A stretch of DNA of 64,000 nucleotides from Sycon ciliatum (taxonomy: Eukaryota > Porifera > Calcarea > Leucosolenida > Sycettidae): NCBI RefSeq assembly GCF_964019385.1, contig NC_088645.1, positions 38,404,350 to 38,468,349 on the forward strand, in the 5' to 3' direction. Below the pieces are notes generated by a model, which was given only the letters and a program-made list of their open reading frames with translations, made no database searches and was not told where the DNA came from. Positions 10,239 to 22,680 of this stretch are shown here, piece by piece. Every line of letters starts with the position of its first letter. Positions within the stretch are counted from its first letter, which is position 1. The translations under genes and the position numbers were made by a program.

Positions 10239-10588
10239 TCATTGACGGTTGACATAGCCTGACAGGGAGTCCATAGCCCAGAGCCAATTATTTTGACGCA
10301 AGTGGCGGTGGACCTTCGTCTTGAAGGATTGGAGAGACTTCAACTGGGGCATCGGTTCTGGACACATGTCTTGCGGAAGCCTGTTGCATTCATCCACTTC
10401 ACCATAAGGGAACGAACGCTCGAGAAAGTTGGGGTCGTAAGGAGCACTTTTGTAGCTGATTCTGATGGCGGACATGGAGCTGCGACCTTGTCCGCGGGAC
10501 GAGGCTAGCTTCCTGGCGAGGCGGCACGAGCGAAGAGAGGTGTGGATGGTCTTGAAGGCACATTAGCTTGTACATGTACATGTACGTT
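10239..10588 (-). pseudogene. Split LINE, segment 1: ORF2 C-terminus
   Basis: Reading leftward from the Polinton edge, the frame begins YKLMCLQDHPHLSSLVPP and ends with PQLKSLQSFKTKVHRHLRQN, the post-RT tail of a LINE ORF2, then stops at 10239. The preceding codons lie at 22192-22502 on the far side of the Polinton (ending RQMYALT). If the Polinton and one target-site copy are ignored, the LINE frame runs across this point. This identifies the host sequence of the Polinton insertion. Confidence 0.85.
10583..10588. repeat. Target-site duplication, left (TACGTT)
   Basis: The same six bases occur at 22186-22191 immediately outside the other end. Six-bp duplications are characteristic of Polinton integration. 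Confidence 0.9.
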
Positions 10589-10619
10589 AGTAGAAAGTAT
10601 TAGGCGTGTACCAACTCAC

Positions 10620-10775
10620 TGACGTCATCGATGACGTCATAGCGATTTAACCCTAAAAACCGGGGCGTTTTAACCCTTTTTTCCGATTTACGGCAAATTT
10701 TTGCGATTTACGGTAAATTTTTGCGATTTAACCTAAAATCGGAGCGTTTTACACATGACGTCATCGATGACGTAA
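10620..10775. promoter_or_regulatory. Paired CRE-like palindromes, left arm
   Basis: TGACGTCATCGATGACGTCA at 10620-10639 is a perfect 20-bp palindrome made of two TGACGTCA (CREB/ATF consensus) sites around ATCG. A second copy at 10756-10775 differs only at its 3' end. The mirror copies are at 21998-22017 and 22135-22154. The motif match is direct; factor binding is inference. Confidence 0.5.
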
Positions 10776-11445
10776 TGCGATTTAACCCTAAAACCTGGGC
10801 GTTTTAACCCTAAATTGTGCGATTTAACCCTAAATCTGTACGTTTAACCCTAAAAATCGCGGCATATTAACCCTAATAATCCCTGTAACCCTAACCCTAT
10901 CACCATGACGATAACCCTAACCCTAGGGCTATCACCATAGCGATAACCCTAATATTCCTGACGATGATAACCCTAACCCTATCAACATGACGATAACCCT
11001 AACCCTAGGGCTATCACCATGACGATAACCCTAATATTCCTGACGATGATAACCCTAACCCTATCAACATGACGATAACCCTAACCCTAGGGCTATCACC
11101 ATGACGATAACCCTAATATTCCTGATAACCCTAACCCTATCAACATGACGATAACCCTAACCCTAGGGCTATCACCATGGCGATAACCCTAATATTTCTG
11201 ATAACACCATAACCCTAATAATCCTGACACCATGGCCATAACCCTAATATTCCTGATAACCCTATCACCATGACGATAGCCCTAATATTCCTGATAACCC
11301 TATCACCATGAAGATAACCCTAATATTCCTGATAACCCTATCACCATGAAGATAACCCTAATATTTCTGGTGACTATAAGCCCACCAATAACCCTAATAT
11401 TTCGAGAGACGATAACCCTAGTAGCCCTCGTAACCCTATCACCAT
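10640..11445 (+). repeat. Telomere-like CCCTAA array, left
   Basis: At least twenty CCCTAA motifs occur, first spaced as GCGATTTAACCCTAAA units, then in a longer minisatellite (GATAACCCTAACCCTA with ATCACCATGACG). The C-rich strand runs 5' to 3' inward from the element end, as at a chromosome's left telomere. The array is irregular and sits about 50 bp inside the element. Confidence 0.9.
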
Positions 11446-11455
11446 AACAATCCTA

Positions 11456-11817
11456 TTGCCATGTCAACTCTACTCTTTTTATGTGTGCAGGTACTACAGA
11501 TCACAACGACAACAACAACACTCAGCAAACCCTAATAATCATCTTATGTGTGTACAAGTCCTATATGCCCTATTAGCAAATCTTGTTGTTACGTACACAG
11601 ATCCTATCGTTATTCATCTTATGTGTGTACAGGTCCTATATACCCTATTAGCAAATCTTGTTGTTATGTGTACAGATCCTATCGTAATGCTAACACAACC
11701 ACCATCGCAACCCCCATCAACTCTTTGATGACGACCGTAACCACCCAATCACCATCACATACGGGTCTACAGGTACTGGAGAGATGTGGAAAAACATCCT
11801 CCCCCCGATTTACCTAA
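11456..11817 (+). repeat. Internal tandem duplication (about 81 bp, two copies) in left arm
   Basis: Two adjacent copies contain TCTTATGTGTGTACA and CCCTATTAGCAAATCTTG, giving overlapping open frames with repeated LMCVQVLY / LLANLVV. The right arm has the same at 21084-21445. No domain is recognised and coding is doubtful. Confidence 0.6.
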
Positions 11818-11887
11818 CAGCAAGACTTAGTAAACTATTTTACTTACCTTGCACGAATTTATACAACAATTCAATCGGGGGGAGGAT
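11796..11887. repeat. Long-stem hairpin, left arm
   Basis: ATCCTCCCCCCGATT (11796-11810) pairs perfectly with AATCGGGGGGAGGAT (11873-11887) around a 62-nt loop. It is repeated in the right arm (21012-21104). Confidence 0.8.
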
Positions 11888-12236
11888 CATGCTCATCACC
11901 AGGTAAGATGCACATGTGCATTCACACGCGCAGATGTATGACGATAGTGTTGTAGCTGCAAACGACGAAAAATTACGAACAAATAAATCAAACGCTGCAA
12001 AATTACGAAAAAATAAATATGTCTATATATGGAATCAGACTACGAGCAAGAATTGTGTACGATCCTAATCGGATAGACATGCAATGGCCGACGATCACAT
12101 ACCTTGTACGAAGCAATGCTGCAAGGAGATGAAGAGGGATATCCGTCCGTCTCTTGTCCGACTAAGCGACTAGGCGAAAATAATTCCAGGACTACATGAA
12201 AAAAGGAACACTGTCACTACGAAATGATTTGAGGAA

Positions 12237-12530
12237 ATGAAGATTGCTTCCATATACGTGCACACCACTTGCTCCGACGAGTTTGAAATTTTCAAGTTCG
12301 TACGCATCAAACCACAAAGCCAGGCAAAACGGGAGCCGCGTACCGGATACGCATCAAAAGCTCGCCCGAGCCCTCGCGTCTCACGTACGCGGGTCAAAAG
12401 GTTACGAGGAGTGCGTCGTACGCGCCCACATTATCTAAAGGGAGTAGTAAAAATGTTTATTTTACTCCTCGCTATGCTCAGAGTACACACAGCGTACTCC
12501 GATCAAGCAAAAGTTTCTGGAATCAACTAG
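12237..12530 (+). CDS. Hypothetical ORF in left arm
   Basis: This 97-codon frame starts MKIASIYVHTTC, has a basic middle (RVSRTRVKRLRGVRRTR) and a hydrophobic stretch (VKMFILLLAMLRV). No family is recognised. The identical-length frame in the right arm (20371-20664) is not independent evidence, because the arms are recent copies. It ends about 150 bp before the PolB start. It could be an unspliced leader or a chance frame. Confidence 0.2.
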   Translation: MKIASIYVHTTCSDEFEIFKFVRIKPQSQAKREPRTGYASKARPSPRVSRTRVKRLRGVRRTRPHYLKGVVKMFILLLAMLRVHTAYSDQAKVSGIN

Positions 12531-12676
12531 AACCCACGACAAATTTGGACGCGTTCAAACAGAACGCGGACGAAGTACTCTAGATGCTTTTCCTTTTACT
12601 TGCTCATAATTTATTTTCCTTCGATGAAGAAAGGTGGAAGTAAGTTTGTTTAGTTGAAAGTACATTTAGCTACAAG

Positions 12677-15600
12677 ATGTCTCAACCAAGCCGAGTGATG
12701 CGAATGTTCGAGTTCGAGCTCGAGCATAATGCGAGAATGCTCAGGAACTACGTCTGCCATCTTGGTGCTGGAGAGTACCAGGATGCTAGCGTTTTGTTGC
12801 AGCTGATGGACAGGAGCCTCAGTGAGCTGCTTCGCGATGACGTCCTCGAGTTTGGGAGATACAAAGTAGCTATTGTCCTTCAACTGCGCTTGTTGAAGCA
12901 GGATGGTGTCACCGGTGACAAGGTGTTCATCAGCTTCTTCGTGCGCACGCGAACCACCATCATCCTGAATGATGATGATGTTCGTTACAAATTGGATAGT
13001 GCTGCAGCAGAGATCGATGCTCAAATCGATGAGTTTGTCCGGAATGGATCGGGGTGGATCGTGGATCACGTCGAAGCCGTATATCTGGAATTGTCGAAAT
13101 TTGAGCCGATGGGAGGTGGAACGTTCATCCATCTCCCCCAGCACATCAAGGCTAAGACAGCCTGCCTCAATGTCATCAACAACGACGATCGGTGTTTGCA
13201 GTGGGCTCTGCTGGCCGCAAAACATCACGAGGATGTTGGTCCAAACAACATTCGAGTATCGAAGTACGTTCCATACGTTGACGAGCTGAACTTTGCCAGT
13301 GTAGAGTTTCCAGCTAGTATGTGTGCCATCACGACGTTGGAGCAGAACAATGTCGATCTCGCCGTCAACGTTTTCGGCATATCGGATGATGGGAAGACTG
13401 TCGTTCCGCTTCGTCTGACCAGAAAAGGCGATCCTCAGGAAGCCATCAATCTGCTCCTGTTTTCTGGTCAAACTGAGGACGAACGTAACGTGCAGCACTG
13501 GGTGTTCATCAAGAACATGAGTCGTCTGGTACACAACAAAAGTCATCATTCACGGAAGGTGTGCTACCGGTGTCTGAACGTGTTGAGTACTCAGACGGCT
13601 CTGGAGAGTCACCAGCTGCATTGTAAAGACCATCTCATCGCGCGGGCGGTGATGCCGCAGAAGGGTGAAAAGCTGCGTTTCACGCAGTACGAGAAGCAGC
13701 TTCGTGCACCGTATGTGATTTATGCTGATTTCGAGAGCATCATCACACCTCATGCTGAGCCTAAAAGCATTGGGGGAAGACGAAGCAGCACTCGGAGCAC
13801 ATACCCTGTTCTGCCGCATACATCGTCGTGCGCAGTGATGGCACCGTGACGGATACGTTCCAGCATACGGGCGAAGATTCAGTAGAGCAGTTCCTGACCT
13901 CCCTGGAACTGCAGGAAGTCTCCATTCGTGAAGACTTGGAGAATCGTCGCCCTATGAACCTGACGCCTGATGAGGAGGCTGGTTTTCTCAGCGCCAGGGA
14001 TTGCTGGATATGTAAACGTCGTCTCGGAGGGGATCGTGTGCGTGACCACGATCACATGACGGGTGCGTTTCGCGGAGCAGCGCACAACTCCTGTAATCTT
14101 CAGCTGCGCATCGTACCCGGCAAGGTGAACATCCCGGTGGTGTTCCACAATCTCAAGGGGTACGACGCGCATCACATCGTCAGTCATCTCGGTAAAGCGA
14201 AGATTGACGAAGTGACGTACCAAGATGCTGGAGACAAGGAGCACACGGAGCAGCGCGGCTCCATCAACATCGTTCCGTCCAACACGGAAAAGTACATCGC
14301 TATGATGTGGCGGCAGTTCGTGTTCATCGACTCGTACGCTTTTCTCAGCACTTCGCTGGATAAGCTTGCGAAGGCAACACCTGGAGAAGCGTTCGTCCGC
14401 ATGCGTGATCTGCATGAGGGGGATCCCGAGAAGACGGATCTTCTGCTGCGGAAAGGTGTATACCCGTACGAGTACATGGACTCGTTCAGCCGCTTCGACG
14501 AGGAGAGTCTCCCCCACGGGAGAAGTTCTACTCGTCGCTGTCCGAGGCACACATCACCGATGACGAGTACCGTCACGCGCAAACCGTCTGGAGCAGGTTT
14601 GATTGTGTCACTCTGCGTGATTATCACGATCTTTACCTGAAGACGGACGTGTACTTGCTGGCGGATGTATTTGAGAACTTCCGCACCACCGCCATCGCCA
14701 CGTACTCGCTAGATCCGGCCAACTACTACACGCTGCCCGGGTTTGCGTGGAGTGCGCTGCTCAAGGTGTCCGACGTCAGTCTGGACCTTCTGTCTGACGT
14801 GACGATGCACACCTTCATCGAGCACGGCATCCGCGGTGGAATCAGCATGAGTGTGCAGAGGTACGCCGAGGGTAACAACGATCTTATACCAGACGGGTAC
14901 GACCCCTCGAAGCCTATGACGTATCTGCAGTACGTCGATGCAAATAATCTGTACGGCTGGGCCATGCAGCAGCCCCTGCCCATCGGCGACTTCAAGTTCG
15001 TGGAGGACATCAGCGATGATCTCGTGGACGACATCGTCATGACGCACCCCCACGATTTGCCTGTGGGATATATCGTGGAGTGTGATCTCACGATTCCCGA
15101 TGGTGTGCACGATGCGCTAAACGAGTATCCTCCTTGCCCCGAGAACATGTGCGTGACGGACGACATGCTGTCGCCGCATCAGCAGCAGCTGGCGCAACAG
15201 CTCGGCTTGGGCAAGCAGAAGGAGAAGAAGCTGATGCTCACTCTGCTGCCAAAAACCCGCTACGTGTGCCACTACGTAAATCTGCAGGCGTACGTGGCGC
15301 TTGGCGTGGAAGTGAGTGAAGTGCATCGCGTCCTCCAGTTCACGCAGCGTCCGTGGATGCGCTCGTACATCCAGCTGAACACCGATCTGCGTACGAATGC
15401 TGCATCGGAGTTTGAGAAAGATTTCTACAAACTCATGAACAATGCAGTGTTTGGCAAGACGATGGAGAACGTCCGGCGCCGCTTGAACCTGAAGCTTGTC
15501 CGCTCGGAAGAAGAGGTGGACAGGCTGCGGCGCGCCATCGCCAAGCGAACGTACAAGCGCAGTATCGTGTACGACAACGACCTGGTGGCGGCGGAGTTCT

Positions 15601-16211
15601 TCAAGTGTAAAGTTCACTTGAACAAACCTATCTACGTGGGTTTCTCCATCCTAGAGTTGTCGAAGGTGCTGATGTACAGCTTCTTCTACGACACTCTGAA
15701 GCCACGCTATGGTCAGAACGTACGGCTGTGTTACACGGACACCGACTCGTTCATCCTGCAGTACGCCACGGCCGACCTGTATGCGGACATGAGTGACATG
15801 ATGGGTCAGTACAATACATCCAACTATCCGACTGACCATCCTCTGCACTCCCTCGCAAACAAGAAAGTCGCCGGCAAGTTCAAGGATGAGCTGGGTGGAC
15901 GCATCATGAGCGAGTTCGTGGGGCTTCGCTCAAAGATGTACGCGTACACCGGCGAAGAGTCAGCAAAGCGTGCGAAGGGCGTGAAGAAGTCCGTCGTGAA
16001 CGATACTCTGCAGTTCTCGACGTACAAGGACTGCCTTCTACCCGATCAGCAGAGCATCGAGAGAGAGATGAATGTGCTGCGCAGCCGGAATCACCACATC
16101 TATGGTGAGACCATCCGCAAAGTGGCGCTATCACCGTTCGATAGCAAGAGGTACATCCTCGACGACGGTGTGAGCACACTTGCGTATGGCCATTATAAGA
16201 TACCGGCATAA
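12677..16211 (+). pseudogene. polB: Protein-primed-type family B DNA polymerase, left copy, two frameshifts
   Basis: This would be about 1178 residues if continuous. Domains in order are: N-terminal region of unknown fold (1-290), a Cys/His zinc-finger motif CYRC...HQLHC (about 296-316), exonuclease I DFE (about 351), an endonuclease VII/HNH-like insert with CWICKRR, RDHDH and CN (about 443-480), exonuclease II (YDAHHIV), exonuclease III (YHDLYLKTD), palm motif A (DANNLYG, about 753), motif B (KLMNNAVFGKTMENV) and motif C (YTDTDS, about 1018). This pattern fits Polinton/adinto-like PolB, which copies linear DNA from a protein primer. Single-base deletions in a G run (near 13777) and a C run (near 14512) break it relative to the right arm. 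They may be mutations or sequencing errors. Confidence 0.92.
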
Positions 16212-16282
16212 CACATCTTAGCGTAGCGACAGACCATTCGCTCACTTCATGAAATACATAGTGTTCTCATAATATTTGATTC

Positions 16283-16537
16283 TCACAATATTTTATTCTT
16301 ACGCAATCGATTAGCTTCCGATTTTCTTAGCCATTCATCCACCTTGGCTGGATAGCCTTTGAAAGATACTAGAGATGTATTGCGCTTCGTTTGAATCACT
16401 TTGTTCAGTCTCAGTCCGGTTTCTTTAGCTCGTTGCAATTCATTTTCATAGAAACCGCCTGTAAGTTCCTCACCTTTTAGATCTTCCAACTGATACGTAA
16501 CCGGATCTGTGAATAGAACCTTCCTGATCTGAAACAC
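16283..16537 (-). pseudogene. Polinton integrase C-terminal (chromodomain-like) remnant
   Basis: This 84-codon fragment opens RKVLFTDPVTYQLEDLKGEE, followed by TGGFYENELQRAK. It then has a chromodomain-like end (LNKVIQTKRNTSLVSFKGYP..VDEWL) and stop. This matches my knowledge of Polinton retrovirus-like integrases, which end with an SH3-like segment and a chromodomain. The DDE catalytic core is missing: upstream codons stop at once and the fragment has no ATG. It is convergent with PolB, as in complete Polintons. The deletion junction lies near 16540. Confidence 0.75.
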
Positions 16538-16705
16538 TTACTCACTCCAAAAATTGCATGCAACCTTAACCCTGTTGACGAGCATAATGATGCATGACGA
16601 AAGCAAGCAGAGTCTTTTATATCGACTCCTACGGCCAATGAACACTCGTCGGCTCTGCATTATAGACGGATGCAGACGGTGCATCGACGCCATTTCCCGA
16701 ACATC

Positions 16706-17023
16706 ATGGACCTGTGTGATCAATTCGATGCGCTCATCAATTACGTTCGACAGCCAAAGGGCTCTCCGGCACGTGATGATGGTTGCAATCACGTGACCGA
16801 GGCAGTGATAGATGGACACTACGTGTGCACGTCGTGTGCGCACGTGATCGATCAGCACGTCTACGCACCGGAGCATGATTTTCAAAAGCGGTGCATGCCA
16901 GAAAAAAGATGCTATCAATCTCGACAGCGCCTTCTAGGCGTCGACAGGCATCTGATTAGTTTTCTGAAGAAAACAAACATTGGTGACTTTCTCTCAGCTC
17001 ACTTCAACCTTCATCCCCTGTAA
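16706..17023 (+). CDS. Zinc-ribbon protein, TFIIB-like N-terminus
   Basis: The 105-codon frame from MDLCDQFDALINYV contains CNHVTEAVIDGHYVCTSCAH, with a C-x2-H...C-x2-C zinc-ribbon spacing like that at the start of TFIIB-type transcription factors, followed by a charged segment. An in-frame ATG at 16670 is an alternative start. The cyclin-fold domain of TFIIB is not obvious. The next + strand frame (17054-17638; KILISIVGAYCWETYPLSHL) could be a downstream exon or a shifted continuation. A role in late transcription of the element is inference only. Confidence 0.4.
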   Translation: MDLCDQFDALINYVRQPKGSPARDDGCNHVTEAVIDGHYVCTSCAHVIDQHVYAPEHDFQKRCMPEKRCYQSRQRLLGVDRHLISFLKKTNIGDFLSAHFNLHPL

Positions 17024-17494
17024 GAAACGTTACATTCTCTGAAGAAATCCTGTTTGTACAAAAGTCTCAATTATGCTATTGCACTATCGTGTCTCCTATT
17101 CGATTGCAATTATATCGTTCAGAAGCGTTTACGCGCCTTCCTTCCACGCAGCAACGTTTCCTGGCTACGGTTTGCGCGAATGTTCAAACCCTTGCCGGTG
17201 AGATTTTCTCTCCTTTGGTGTCTTCATTTCATGGAGAGCTCGCGCCAGCTCACACCGCAACACGCGACGACCGCTCGTAGAAATCTACAAAACCTGAGCG
17301 ACGGTGATGCTAAAATTCTAATCTCTATCGTCGGTGCCTATTGCTGGGAGACGTACCCTCTATCCCATCTGATCGACAACTTTCACTCACAGCATCAAGA
17401 CTTGCAGTGTATCCTATACGACTATGCGAAAATCGCATGCGATCGACAGCCATCGGCACGTCAGAGGCGCGTTCGAGCGTGCCGGAGGCACGTC

Positions 17495-17585
17495 CGGGCA
17501 GCCGGACAGCCAGGCAGCCAGCAGCCGGACAGCCAGGCAGCCGGGGGGAGGGGGGGGGGGCAGCAGCCGGGCAGCCCAGCCAGAA
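17495..17585 (+). repeat. GC-rich CAGCCGG minisatellite with poly-G
   Basis: Repeats of GCAGCCGGACAGCCAG are followed by a G-rich run and another CAGCCGGGCAGCC. It ends the possible coding frame from 17054. It is unlike the surrounding base composition. Confidence 0.75.
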
Positions 17586-17992
17586 TGGGGCCAGAATGTG
17601 CTTTAGAACGAGAAGTCGTTTCTTCTTCGGTATTCTGAACAACCCCTTTTTTATTTATAGCTCTTATAGTGCTGGGTAACCCCGATGAAAATTGTAAGAG
17701 TAAGTGGCCCATGACTCGCACCGAGCGTACTCAAAATGTATATGAGGTTTATTTTATTATTTTTATTAATATTTATTATTTTTTTTGAATTGGCCAAAAT
17801 TTGCGCTAGATTTTGAGGTGGTTTTCAGGCTAAAATTTAGGCTAAGTTTTAGGCCAAAAGTAAAGGAGTTTACAAAATAGACCGACTCATTCGAAATTAA
17901 CTTTATGACTTTATACATCACAATAAGTTGAGTAGGTGTTCTTAGAACAATCTATGGCAAGAATTGGCCTCTGACACATGGTCAACAGTTTT

Positions 17993-20224
17993 TCATAAAG
18001 TTTGAAAGTCAGCGCAGATTTTAGGGATTTTAGCGTACCTCTGCACACTCATGCTGATTCCACCGCGGATGCCGTGCTCGATGAAGGTGTGCATCGTCAC
18101 GTCAGACAGCAGGTCCAGACTGACGTCGGACACCTTGAGCAGCGCACTCCACGCAAACCCGGGCAGCGTGTAGTAGTTGGCCGGATCTAGCGAGTACGTG
18201 GCGATGGCGGTGGTGCGGAAGTTCTCAAATACATCCGCCAGCAAGTACACGTCCGTCTTCAGGTAAAGATCGTGATAATAACGCAGAGTGACACAATCAA
18301 ACCTGCTCCAGACGGTTTGCGCGTGACGGTACTCGTCATCGGTGATGTGTGCCTCGGACAGCGACGAGTAGAACTTCTCCCGTGGGGGGAGACTCTCCTC
18401 GTCGAAGCGGCTGAACGAGTCCATGTACTCGTACGGGTATACACCTTTCCGCAGCAGAAGATCCGTCTTCTCGGGATCCCCCTCATGCAGATCACGCATG
18501 CGGACGAACGCTTCTCCAGGTGTTGCCTTCGCAAGCTTATCCAGCGAAGTGCTGAGAAAAGCGTACGAGTCGATGAACACGAACTGCCGCCACATCATAG
18601 CGATGTACTTTTCCATGTTGGACGGAACGATGTTGATGGAGCCGCGCTGCTCCGTGTGCTCCTTGTCTCCAGCATCTTGGTACGTCACTTCGTCAATCTT
18701 CGTTTTACCGAGATGACTGACGATGTGATGCGCGTCGTACCCCCTGAGATTGTGGAACACCACCGGGATGTTCACCTTGCCGGGTACGATGCGCAGCTGA
18801 AGATTACAGGAGTTGTGCGCTGCTCCGCGAAACGCACCCGTCATGTGATCGTGGTCACGCACACGATCCCCTCCGAGACGACGTTTACATATCCAGCAAT
18901 CCCTGGCGCTGAGAAAACCAGCCTCCTCATCAGGCGTCAGGTTCATAGGGCGACGATTCTCCAAGTCTTCACGAATGGAGACTTCCTGCAGTTCCAGGGA
19001 GGTCAGGAACTGCTCTACTGAATCTTCGCCCGTATGCTGGAACGTATCCGTCACGGTGCCATCACTGCGCATGACGATGTATGCGGCAGAACAGGGTATG
19101 TGCTCCGAGTGCTGCTTCGTCTTCCCCCCAATGCTTTTAGGCTCAGCATGAGGTGTGATGATGCTCTCGAAATCAGCATAAATCACATACGGTGCACGAA
19201 GCTGCTTCTCGTACTGCGTGAAACGCAGCTTTTCACCCTTCTGCGGCATCACCGCCCGCGCGATGAGATGGTCTTTACAATGCAGCTGGTGACTCTCCAG
19301 AGCCGTCTGAGTACTCAACACGTTCAGACACCGGTAGCACACCTTCCGTGAATGATGACTTTTGTTGTGTACCAGACGACTCATGTTCTTGATGAACACC
19401 CAGTGCTGCACGTTACGTTCGTCCTCAGTTTGACCAGAAAACAGGAGCAGATTGATGGCTTCCTGAGGATCGCCTTTTCTGGTCAGACGAAGCGGAACGA
19501 CAGTCTTCCCATCATCCGATATGCCGAAATTGTTGACGGCGAGATCGACATTGTTCTGCTCCAACGTCGTGATGGCACACATACTAGCTGGAAACTCTAC
19601 ACCGGCAAAGTTCAGCTCGTCGACGTATGGAACGTACTTCGATACTCGAATGTTGTTTGGACCAACATCCTCGTGATGTTTTGCGGCCAGCAGAGCCCAC
19701 TGCAAACACTGATCGTCGTTGTTGATGACATTGAGGCAGGCTGTCTTAGCCTTGATGTGCTGGGGGAGATGGATGAACGTTCCACCTCCCATCGGCTCAA
19801 ATTTCGACAATTCCAGATATACGGCTTCGACGTGATCCACGATCCACCCCGATCCATTCCGGACAAACTCATCGATTTGAGCATCGATCTCTGCTGCAGC
19901 ACTATCCAATTTGTAACGAACATCATCATCATTCAGGATGATGGTGGTTCGCGTGCGCACGAAGAAGCTGATGAACACCTTGTCACCGGTGACACCATCC
20001 TGCTTCAACAAGCGCAGTTGAAGGACAATAGCTACTTTGTATCTCCCAAACTCGAGGACGTCATCGCGAAGCAGCTCACTGAGGCTCCTGTCCATCAGCT
20101 GCAACAAAACGCTAGCATCCTGGTACTCTCCAGCACCAAGATGGCAGACGTAGTTCCTGAGCATTCTCGCATTATGCTCGAGCTCGAACTCGAACATTCG
20201 CATCACTCGGCTTGGTTGAGACAT
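17993..20224 (-). CDS. polB: Family B DNA polymerase, right-arm copy, C-terminally truncated
   Basis: This uninterrupted 743-residue frame carries the N-terminal region, the zinc-finger motif, the DFE exonuclease motif, the HNH-like insert and YHDLYLKTD, as in the left copy. Similarity ends after SMSVQRYA, and 12 unrelated residues lead to the stop. Palm motifs A, B and C are therefore absent and it cannot polymerise DNA. An exonuclease/endonuclease fragment could still be made. In this arm the two homopolymers that break the left gene have six bases each and the frame is open. About eight substitutions separate the copies. Confidence 0.9.
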   Translation of the reverse strand: MSQPSRVMRMFEFELEHNARMLRNYVCHLGAGEYQDASVLLQLMDRSLSELLRDDVLEFGRYKVAIVLQLRLLKQDGVTGDKVFISFFVRTRTTIILNDDDVRYKLDSAAAEIDAQIDEFVRNGSGWIVDHVEAVYLELSKFEPMGGGTFIHLPQHIKAKTACLNVINNDDQCLQWALLAAKHHEDVGPNNIRVSKYVPYVDELNFAGVEFPASMCAITTLEQNNVDLAVNNFGISDDGKTVVPLRLTRKGDPQEAINLLLFSGQTEDERNVQHWVFIKNMSRLVHNKSHHSRKVCYRCLNVLSTQTALESHQLHCKDHLIARAVMPQKGEKLRFTQYEKQLRAPYVIYADFESIITPHAEPKSIGGKTKQHSEHIPCSAAYIVMRSDGTVTDTFQHTGEDSVEQFLTSLELQEVSIREDLENRRPMNLTPDEEAGFLSARDCWICKRRLGGDRVRDHDHMTGAFRGAAHNSCNLQLRIVPGKVNIPVVFHNLRGYDAHHIVSHLGKTKIDEVTYQDAGDKEHTEQRGSINIVPSNMEKYIAMMWRQFVFIDSYAFLSTSLDKLAKATPGEAFVRMRDLHEGDPEKTDLLLRKGVYPYEYMDSFSRFDEESLPPREKFYSSLSEAHITDDEYRHAQTVWSRFDCVTLRYYHDLYLKTDVYLLADVFENFRTTAIATYSLDPANYYTLPGFAWSALLKVSDVSLDLLSDVTMHTFIEHGIRGGISMSVQRYAKIPKICADFQTL

Positions 20225-20370
20225 CTTGTAGCTAAATGTACTTTCAACTAAACAAACTTACTTCCACCTTTCTTCATCGAAGGAAAATAAATTATGAGCA
20301 AGTAAAAGGAAAAGCATCTAGAGTACTTCGTCCGCGTTCTGTTTGAACGCGTCCAAATTTGTCGTGGGTT

Positions 20371-20664
20371 CTAGTTGATTCCAGAAACTTTTGCTTGATC
20401 GGAGTACGCTGTGTGTACTCTGAGCATAGCGAGGAGTAAAATAAACATTTTTACTACTCCCTTTAGATAGTGTGGGCGCGTACGACGCACTCCTCGTAAC
20501 CTTTTGACCCGCGTACGTGAGACGCGAGGGCTCGGGCGAGCTTTTGATGCGTATCCGGTACGCGGCTCCCGTTTTGCCTGGCTTTGTGGTTTGATGCGTA
20601 CGAACTTGAAAATTTCAAACTCGTCGGAGCAAGTGGTGTGCACGTATATGGAAGCAATCTTCAT
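20371..20664 (-). CDS. Hypothetical ORF in right arm
   Basis: Inverted copy of the 97-codon frame at 12237-12530, identical in translation. No domain is recognised. Coding status is unproven. Confidence 0.2.
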   Translation of the reverse strand: MKIASIYVHTTCSDEFEIFKFVRIKPQSQAKREPRTGYASKARPSPRVSRTRVKRLRGVRRTRPHYLKGVVKMFILLLAMLRVHTAYSDQAKVSGIN

Positions 20665-21011
20665 TTCCTCAAATCATTTCGTAGTGACAGTGTTCCTTTT
20701 TTCATGTAGTCCTGGAATTATTTTCGCCTAGTCGCTTAGTCGGACAAGAGACGGACGGATATCCCTCTTCATCTCCTTGCAGCATTGCTTCGTACAAGGT
20801 ATGTGATCGTCGGCCATTGCATGTCTATCCGATTAGGATCGTACACAATTCTTGCTCGTAGTCTGATTCCATATATAGACATATTTATTTTTTCGTAATT
20901 TTGCAGCGTTTGATTTATTTGTTCGTAATTTTTCGTCGTTTGCAGCTACAACACTATCGTCATACATCTGCGCGTGTGAATGCACATGTGCATCTTACCT
21001 GGTGATGAGCA

Positions 21012-21104
21012 TGATCCTCCCCCCGATTGAATTGTTGTATAAATTCGTGCAAGGTAAGTAAAATAGTTTACTAAGTCTTGCTGTTAGGTAAATCGGGGGG
21101 AGGA
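21012..21104. repeat. Long-stem hairpin, right arm
   Basis: Mirror copy of the 15-bp GC-rich stem hairpin at 11796-11887. Confidence 0.8.
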
Positions 21105-21459
21105 TGTTTTTCCACATCTCTCCAGTACCTGTAGACCCGTATGTGATGGTGATTGGGTGGTTACGGTCGTCATCAAAGAGTTGATGGGGGTTGCGATGGT
21201 GGTTGTGTTAGCATTACGATAGGATCTGTACACATAACAACAAGATTTGCTAATAGGGTATATAGGACCTGTACACACATAAGATGAATAACGATAGGAT
21301 CTGTGTACGTAACAACAAGATTTGCTAATAGGGCATATAGGACTTGTACACACATAAGATGATTATTAGGGTTTGCTGAGTGTTGTTGTTGTCGTTGTGA
21401 TCTGTAGTACCTGCACACATAAAAAGAGTAGAGTTGACATGGCAATAGGATTGTTATGG

Positions 21460-22134
21460 TGATAGGGTTACGAGGGCTACTAGGGTTATCGTCTCTCGAA
21501 ATATTAGGGTTATTGGTGGGCTTATAGTCACCAGAAATATTAGGGTTATCTTCATGGTGATAGGGTTATCAGGAATATTAGGGTTATCTTCATGGTGATA
21601 GGGTTATCAGGAATATTAGGGCTATCGTCATGGTGATAGGGTTATCAGGAATATTAGGGTTATGGCCATGGTGTCAGGATTATTAGGGTTTTTTTTTCTT
21701 TTTTTTTTTCTACAGGTTATGGTGTTATCAGAAATATTAGGGTTATCGCCATGGTGATAGCCCTAGGGTTAGGGTTATCGTCATGTTGATAGGGTTAGGG
21801 TTATCATCGTCAGGAATACTAGGGTTATCGCTATGGTGATAGCCCTAGGGTTAGGGTTATCGTCATGGTGATAGGGTTAGGGTTACAGGGATTATTAGGG
21901 TTAATATGCCGCGATTTTTAGGGTTAAACGTACAGATTTAGGGTTAAATCGCACAATTTAGGGTTAAAACGCCCAGGTTTTTAGGGTTAAATCGCATTAC
22001 GTCATCGATGACGTCATTTGTAAAACGCTCCGATTTTAGGTTAAATCGCAAACATTTACCGTAAATCGCACAAATTTGCCGTAAATCGGAAAAAATAGGG
22101 TTAAAACGCCCCGGTTTTTAGGGTTAAATCGCTA
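21460..22134 (-). repeat. Telomere-like TTAGGG array, right
   Basis: TTAGGG motifs run toward the right end of the element on the + strand, as at the right end of a chromosome. They are set in the same GATAGGGTTATC and GGGTTAAATCGC contexts as the left array. A poly-T tract interrupts the array near 21690. Confidence 0.9.
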
Positions 22135-22154
22135 TGACGTCATCGATGACGTCA
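21998..22154. promoter_or_regulatory. Paired CRE-like palindromes, right arm
   Basis: Mirror images of the left-arm sites: an imperfect copy at 21998-22017 and the perfect 20-bp palindrome at 22135-22154. Confidence 0.5.
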
Positions 22155-22185
22155 GTGAGTTGGTACACGCCTAATACTTTCTACT

Positions 22186-22191
22186 TACGTT
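22186..22191. repeat. Target-site duplication, right (TACGTT)
   Basis: Matches 10583-10588 exactly. Confidence 0.9.
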
Positions 22192-22680
22192 AGAGCGTAC
22201 ATTTGGCGGCGGACAGCTAGCCTCTGCAGCAAGGCGTGAGGACCAGTGATAGAAAGGGCCTTCCGCTGTACTCGGTCGAGACTTTGCAGGTGAGAGTTGG
22301 CTGCGCCCATCCATATCAATGGTGCGTATTCGAGTACAGGGCGTACGAAGCCTTTGTACGTTGTCAAGCGTCCTTCACGATCAAGCAAACTTGATGCTCG
22401 ATGCAGAAATCCTAGACGGTCGACAGCACGAAGAGAAACATTGCGAAGATGGCGTCTGAAGGTGAGTTTGCTGTCGAAGGTCGTCCCCGCATGGAATATC
22501 ATGGGCTCCGAATGTTAGTTCTGGGAGTGGCCAGCGGTTGCGGTGGTGGCCAATATGCAGCAGCTGCGACTTTGTTGGCTCAAAGCGAACCCACCATTGT
22601 TCTCCCCAGCTACATAATCGATCCAGGCTAGATTGCATGTCTGCAATACTGCCAGCAGAGTCATTTCTGGATCGCATGTA
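22192..22680 (-). pseudogene. Split LINE, segment 2: RT thumb region
   Basis: Reading leftward, the frame gives RSRNDSAGSIADMQSSLDRL, then SWGEQWWVRFEPTKSQLLHI, then a frameshifted continuation with YKGFVRPVLEYAPLIWMG and SLDRVQRKALSITG. These are the post-palm and thumb regions of a LINE RT. It connects upstream to 25091-27097 and downstream to 10239-10588. The frame break lies around 22500. Confidence 0.8.

Follow-up and report, generated by a model that had tools for sequence, protein, structure and literature searches.

A 64,000-nucleotide stretch of the genome of the calcareous sponge Sycon ciliatum (NC_088645.1, positions 38,404,350 to 38,468,349), hereafter called the window, contains at positions 10589-22185 an element that starts with AG, stops with CT and is flanked on either side by TACGTT (Table 1). 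When the element and one copy of this target site duplication (TSD) are removed, the flanks (10239-10588 and 22186-22514) join into a reverse-transcriptase-like open reading frame (ORF) of 170 aa that extends over the join; the label is our own reading of the joined frame. Because this frame runs across the join, the element boundaries are considered correct. The terminal inverted repeats (TIRs) are 4.15-4.28 kb long and take in a large part of the gene for the family B DNA polymerase (PolB). The two arms differ by 12 substitutions in 3658 bp, the lower identity of their outer, array-bearing part being due to indels in repeat number. A profile scan of nine window frames matched PF03175 (family B DNA polymerase, organellar/viral type) and returned no integrase among these nine, so that the window copy looks non-autonomous. 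A first-pass annotation of the sequence had already named the element a Polinton derivative with AG...CT ends, a 6-bp duplication and a Polinton-type PolB. All of these features are confirmed; the TIRs are far longer than it implied, and the palindromic architecture described below had been missed.

The hexamer TTAGGG has 50 exact matches in the window against 21.0 +/- 4.7 expected, a number reached by none of 100 shuffles. Twenty-five matches lie in the left repeat, all on the minus strand (10651-11535, the first ~950 bp), and 18 in the right repeat, all on the plus strand (21366-22123, the last ~820 bp), with no match of opposite polarity within either interval. The remaining seven are scattered, one of them inside the element at 18021. 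The earlier description of CCCTAA (left) and TTAGGG (right) arrays in chromosomal polarity, irregular and subterminal, is in agreement with these counts. The repeated word is the octamer TAACCCTA (= TAGGGTTA), which first occurs ~60 bp inside the end (10648), preceded by AGTAGAAAGTATTAGGCGTG and by the palindrome TGACGTCATCGATGACGTCA. The sites are spaced apart, with at most two telomere units in direct succession, and tandem units of 20, 38 and 82 bp are present. The 20-bp palindrome, which we take to be two octamers like those of the cyclic AMP response element (CRE/ATF-like), adjoins the array in all five ends checked. It is partly repeated further inward from the end. The right array has a T-rich interruption at 21688-21715 (T-runs, then CTACAGG) that the left array does not have. 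Inside the left array, no inverted repeats of at least 14 bp within 60 bp were found.

Table 1. Features of the window element (window positions) and location of the family C palindromes
Feature	Position	Strand	Basis or remark
Left TSD, TACGTT	10583..10588	.	sequence
Left long TIR (arm)	10589..14866	+	inner 3658 bp 99.6% identical to right arm, outer part ~90%
Palindrome TGACGTCATCGATGACGTCA near end	10620..10639	.	mirrored at 22135-22154
Array of 36 TAACCCTA (= TAGGGTTA) octamers in left repeat, telobox/TRF-type sites	10648..11438	-	word count
Left PolB gene, interrupted, three overlapping frames	12644..16211	+	frames and PF03175
Unpaired middle: remaining PolB and segments found near the right end of the full-length C11 copy, reaching the ATPase gene	14867..18032	+	comparison with C11
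Right PolB copy, single 754-aa frame, ended early by the central junction	17993..20257	-	frames and PF03175
Putative relic of palindrome centre: ATPase/TTAGGG junction, then jump into right arm	18010..18026	+	common to four other loci
Right long TIR (arm)	18033..22185	-	self-comparison with left arm
Matching TAGGGTTA site array in right repeat	21463..22126	+	word count
Right TSD, TACGTT	22186..22191	.	sequence
Family C palindromes	C13:27662314-27676958, C8:31967341-31981940, C9:13.21 Mb, C14:11.50 Mb, C3:26.40 Mb		ends approximate

Family A ends and the constrained octamer

The Sycon ciliatum genome, whose contigs are designated C1, C2, C3 and so on, was searched with an 82-base query taken from the element end. 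At least 94 matches were obtained, 40 of them to full ends (39 over all 82 bases and one over bases 1-74). The full ends of this family, called family A, fall into 13 pairs, whose members lie 9.5-31.4 kb from each other, and 14 unpaired ends. TSDs were checked in nine fetched pairs of the 13 known and in the window, ten in total; all nine pairs have exact 6-bp TSDs, all different. The gene content of the family was read from a full-length relative with TIRs of ~1.9 kb (C11:3555990-3574745, ~18.7 kb). This copy encodes a PolB of 1178 aa (PF03175, E 3.8e-22), a retroviral-type integrase (PF00665, rve), an adenovirus-type protease (PF00770, Peptidase_C5, E 1.5e-5, above the cut-off) and an ATPase with a weaker match (AAA_14, E 6.3e-4, below the cut-off). 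A 526-aa ORF, looked at for a double jelly-roll capsid, had no match in Pfam or PHROG and only a chance-level match in PDB. Judged by its sequence, the C11 copy is a Polinton, and the window element is a mobilised derivative of this Sycon ciliatum Polinton family. A copy on C5, with a PolB 82% identical, adjoins an end with 20 CCCTAA (L032), its other end being unmatched. The P0003 PolB is 78% identical, and a viral_contigs search for relatives of P0001 confirmed none.

Thirty of the 40 full ends were cut as loci and hold 631 CCCTAA and no TTAGGG within 1500 bp inward. The count per end is 18-27 in 28 of them; in the other two, L041 (2 CCCTAA) and L045 (6), the homology extends over no more than 218 and 348 bp, but what is left still has the motif. 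Together with two C1 ends, these 32 ends contain 987 TAACCCTA octamers counting overlaps (~31 per end) and no TAGGGTTA, and 821 sites of the full TRF form YTAGGGTTR. Motif and polarity are thus kept in other members of the family, in the 32 ends examined of the 40 found, and the array length varies from end to end.

Over the leftmost 900 bp of the window copy, 36 exact copies of TAACCCTA were counted, in several contexts (20-, 38- and 82-bp units and isolated sites), beside two neighbours with one mismatch and ten with two. When the word is displaced by a single base, conservation is far lower (ATAACCCT, 20 exact versus 19). Divergence was then measured on the aligned ends, 30 in number after removal of L041 and L045, which are truncated. 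Departures from the majority base amount to 0.0197 in 215 core columns versus 0.0475 in the rest of the array zone (400 columns), a 2.4-fold difference; a value as low as that of the core columns arises in 2 of 614 circular shifts, a result that is indicative, the ends being related. When a matched filter is applied (word exact in at least half of the rows), the values are 0.0172 for 27 core sites versus 0.0348 for 210 windows fully outside the core, or 2.0-fold. The constrained unit consists of discrete TAGGGTTA sites, the core of the TRF site YTAGGGTTR, rather than of telomere tracts. The telomere-like motif of the first description therefore stands, with TAACCCTA replacing tandem CCCTAA as its unit.

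Two further Polinton families were read in the same genome. Family C ends (AGTAGTATAGAAG...), read on both sides of two copies, have no array and two TTAGGGG in opposite polarity. In family B (...CTATACTACT), no sites were found in the 1901 bp after PolB in one copy on C10, nor in the 3.9 kb before PolB in two copies. Because the family B and C ends that were read carry no array, the telobox motif looks like a trait of a single Polinton family. Both families (ends L078-L081, L093) terminate in AGTAGTATAG and carry, close to the terminus, a motif resembling GGTTCTGGCTCACC, possibly the site of a different terminal factor.

Palindromic copies

Six of the 13 end-paired copies are inverted-duplicated well past the 1.9-kb TIR, namely C13:0.14, C2:9.35, C1:6.02, C3:2.88, C3:3.78 (contig and position in Mb) and the window copy; C5:34.79 and C3:5.40 have shorter extra inverted matches. 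Two of the six, C1:6022135-6039787 and C13:137902-147428, are palindromes with near identical centres, in which an ATPase gene fragment, degenerate (TTAGGG)n, a GC-rich spacer, (CCCTAA)n and an ATPase fragment follow each other. Each arm is made of the end region, further element DNA and a junction in the ATPase gene. The C13 arms differ by 16 substitutions in 4706 bp and lack PolB according to mapping and to a PolB search that gave no match. The same centre, with one side lost, is found in C3:2879744-2898152, and C3:3779525-3798788 shows an asymmetric central deletion and does not have the shared junction. C3:2.88, C2:9.35 and C1:6.02 each contain two PolB copies in inverted order whose frames are unbroken, and the C2:9.35 arms extend over at least 5 kb at 99.98%.

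The junction CAGCGCAGATTTTAGGG was located in seven places at five loci: C1 and C13:0.14 (in both arms), C3:2.88, the window and C13:4.91. Window positions 14500-18027 align without interruption to the central part of the C1 copy, at 98.7%, and the C1, C13 and window copies have mutually different TSDs. Since the junction is common to other loci, the window copy can be read as a whole left arm that runs as far as the first telomere-like unit and there passes directly into the outermost 4.15 kb of the right arm. It appears to belong to a palindromic sublineage and to have lost its central part.

Family C provides five near-perfect palindromes of ~14.6 kb with an unbroken 1269-aa PolB frame in each arm, this PolB having ~41% and 62% identity to P0007 in two parts of its length. 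Their centres are mirror-symmetric, at 98.4-99.8% in four and at 100% around a 179-bp unpaired middle in the C3 copy, and no TTAGGG occurs in them. The TSDs match in the C13 and C3 copies; the right end of the C14 copy was not found where predicted. The palindromic Polinton form appears to be mobile.

Proposed function and competing explanations

The Myb domains of TRF1 and TRF2 bind YTAGGGTTR (PMC4357705, PMC5651854). At the origin oriP of Epstein-Barr virus (EBV), TTAGGGTTA nonamers recruit both proteins and their mutation impairs replication (PMC13223232), and TERB1, with a MYB domain, is reported in Porifera (PMC7227075). A single TRF-Myb-like stretch was detected in the Sycon genome with a TRF2 Myb query (C1:3496966-3497118, 50 residues, 46%, E 4.7e-9). 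To our knowledge, it is not known how Polintons replicate in animals or how their free linear form is maintained and licensed. Our preferred explanation, to which we give somewhat less than an even chance, is that the family A arrays serve a host TRF-like protein as docking sites, placed at the origin from which a linear form replicates, and that the window copy stems from a copy-back palindrome. It can be outlined as follows. The octamer arrays would be bound by a host telobox protein, most likely a TRF-type Myb, which would aid the start or licensing of replication at the ends of an extrachromosomal linear form and help to keep or segregate the episome, in a role like that of the TTAGGGTTA nonamers at the EBV origin and not as a telomere cap. 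The ends of the linear free form would act as origins. A displaced or broken strand could fold back and be copied, yielding a palindromic genome which, with an origin in each arm, would go on being copied as a self-complementary molecule. Such palindromes may be integrated by integrase supplied in trans from intact relatives. The window copy would descend from one of them by asymmetric loss of the centre; palindrome centres are unstable, which would account for its central deletion.

A wider formulation is that a Polinton lineage recruited a host telomere protein to constrained TIR sites for replication or persistence and spawned self-complementary Polintons. These would have an origin in either arm, in several copies PolB in both arms, and a centre resembling a telomere fusion, and would propagate as palindromes with the integrase of intact relatives. 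This we put forward with distinct doubt. If true, constrained telomere-protein sites at Polinton origins would provide a concrete host factor and a parallel to EBV oriP outside the herpesviruses. Palindromic Polintons, in two families of one genome, would correspond to copy-back defective genomes and would indicate indirectly that replication by strand displacement takes place in the germ line. Polinton/Maverick elements (polintoviruses) share the AG...CT ends, the 6-bp TSD and PolB with the family, and the rve integrase, Peptidase_C5 and AAA-type ATPase with C11; the Sycon elements differ by the ~1.9-kb TIRs (C11), by ~30 telobox octamers per family end and by a palindromic PolB-bearing sublineage. 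Copy-back or snap-back defective viral genomes and self-complementary genomes have an inverted duplication around the centre and keep the origin at both ends. The Sycon palindromes have the same layout, but they are integrated, with related copies at different loci and different TSDs, and three family A and five family C copies retain PolB frames that are unbroken in either arm. The EBV episome is circular. The likeness to the dyad symmetry element of oriP lies in discrete TTAGGGTTA-type sites beside a viral origin instead of telomere tracts, whereas EBV has three nonamers beside EBNA1 sites and the Sycon family ~30 sites per TIR and a presumed linear form (PMC13223232). Agreement with YTAGGGTTR, looked for as an oriP-like property, was found in full form in 821 sites, beside the 987 TAACCCTA octamers. 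Among the papers listed in searches of open-licence literature, no title or abstract opening gives an account of such Polinton arrays or palindromes; as far as these searches show, a Polinton TIR of conserved telomere-protein sites and a mobile-looking palindromic form are both new for this kind of element.

A number of points weigh against this explanation. The protein binding, its function, the palindromic descent of the window copy and the copy-back origin are parts that we infer, and integrase in trans is assumed. The arrays are dispensable for Polintons in this host, because families B and C do without them where read. Helical phasing of the sites gave no sign by inspection. The TRF dimerisation domain PF08558 had no match in the host, but 14 controls were equally silent, so the result is uninformative. 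Conservation is also high in some further repeated octamers (CCCTATCA, 8 exact and no one-mismatch copies; CTAATATT, 9 and 2), and the two C1 ends contain one and two TTAGGG of opposite polarity within 5 kb. As the family A ends share ancestry, their polarity amounts to a single event that had a 1-in-2 prior, and the divergence test does not provide a clean p-value. In C2:9.35 the shared junction is absent and the midpoint is not palindromic, so not every inverted-duplicated copy fits one origin, and the history of this copy may differ from that of the others. The family C palindromes on C8 and C9 have no matching TSDs.

Rather than in replication or maintenance, the octamers could act as an enhancer or promoter of the element genes near both ends, as sites for a host transcription factor. 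Myb and Tbf1-like factors have telobox-like sites and site arrays are typical of enhancers; the C11 TIRs flank PolB and a right-end gene, and CRE-like palindromes adjoin the array in the five ends checked. However, an origin or end function would account at least equally well for ~31 sites per end and for their position beside the terminus in each TIR, and the data do not separate the two. We regard the enhancer as rather unlikely. Neutral minisatellite growth, the null model of the first-pass annotation, supposes that a tandem repeat happened to acquire a telomere-like word, which was then copied. The tandem 20-, 38- and 82-bp units, the unequal array lengths of different ends and the families B and C without arrays where read are in line with it. 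Nevertheless, a single octamer recurs in several unit classes with 36 exact to 2 one-mismatch copies, and it departs from the majority 2.0-2.4 times less than the spacers (2/614 shifts). Since the octamer is kept while the spacers change, simple growth is disfavored and we consider it improbable.

The palindromic copies could also be assembly artefacts, or separate inverted duplications formed after insertion, instead of a mobile palindromic form. Near-perfect palindromes are hard to assemble, matching TSDs are missing in two of four two-ended family C palindromes (C8, C9), and C2:9.35 lacks the shared junction. Yet the arms differ by substitutions (12 in 3658 bp in the window, 16 in 4706 in C13), they begin exactly at the element ends with 6-bp TSDs (C13, C1, C2 and the window; C13 and C3 in family C), and the same internal junction is found at five loci. 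The probability left to this alternative is slight.

The Sycon ciliatum telomere repeat, on which the first-pass annotation had made its telomeric interpretation depend, is TTAGGG. Among 13 stretches sampled at contig ends, the first 3 kb of C9 contain 486 CCCTAA and no TTAGGG, C12 has 80 copies of the repeat in the 500 bases after a gap, and the other 11 have 0-6 copies. The family A positions (n=27, from the 40 full-end matches) depart from uniformity along the chromosomes (Kolmogorov-Smirnov (KS) p = 0.019; 0.041 with neighbours collapsed, n=23), and their distances from the chromosome ends do not differ from those of family B (n=47; Mann-Whitney p = 0.42, collapsed 0.74). One family B copy on C209, six second pieces of counted copies and 24 family C rows were excluded from the position test. 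Telomere-targeted insertion was rejected, the TSDs being without telomere repeat and the positions no more telomeric than those of family B. A further alternative is telomere mimicry proper, known from Marek's disease virus and human herpesvirus 6 (HHV-6), in which TTAGGG arrays would protect the free linear molecule as caps or serve its recombination with the telomeres of the host. The host repeat, the chromosome-like polarity and the palindrome centres, where (TTAGGG)n stands opposite (CCCTAA)n as in a telomere fusion, speak for such mimicry; against it, making it very improbable, stand the subterminal, irregular arrays, the different 6-bp duplications in nine of nine fetched pairs and the window, and the lack of any excess near chromosome ends over family B (p = 0.42), though family A alone is non-uniform (KS p = 0.019). 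The protective caps proposed in the first pass accordingly find no counterpart in arrays that are neither terminal nor telomeric tandems, and recombination with host telomeres fares no better, 10 of 10 TSDs being 6-mers without telomere repeat and the distances not differing from family B. HHV-6A/B have the host telomere motif near the genome ends as well, but integrate into telomeres, whereas family A inserts with 6-bp TSDs and is no more biased towards telomeres than family B; the perfect terminal tandems and telomere insertion of such herpesviruses were not found in family A. Rotifer Terminons are also large mobile elements with telomere-repeat sequence at an end, but they are retroelements that attach to G-rich chromosome ends (PMC6431247). 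An interstitial TTAGGG-rich stretch, irregular and often spaced by ~140-150 bp, extends over at least 8 kb from C1:32448899, near seven family B PolB copies at 32.47-32.84 Mb.

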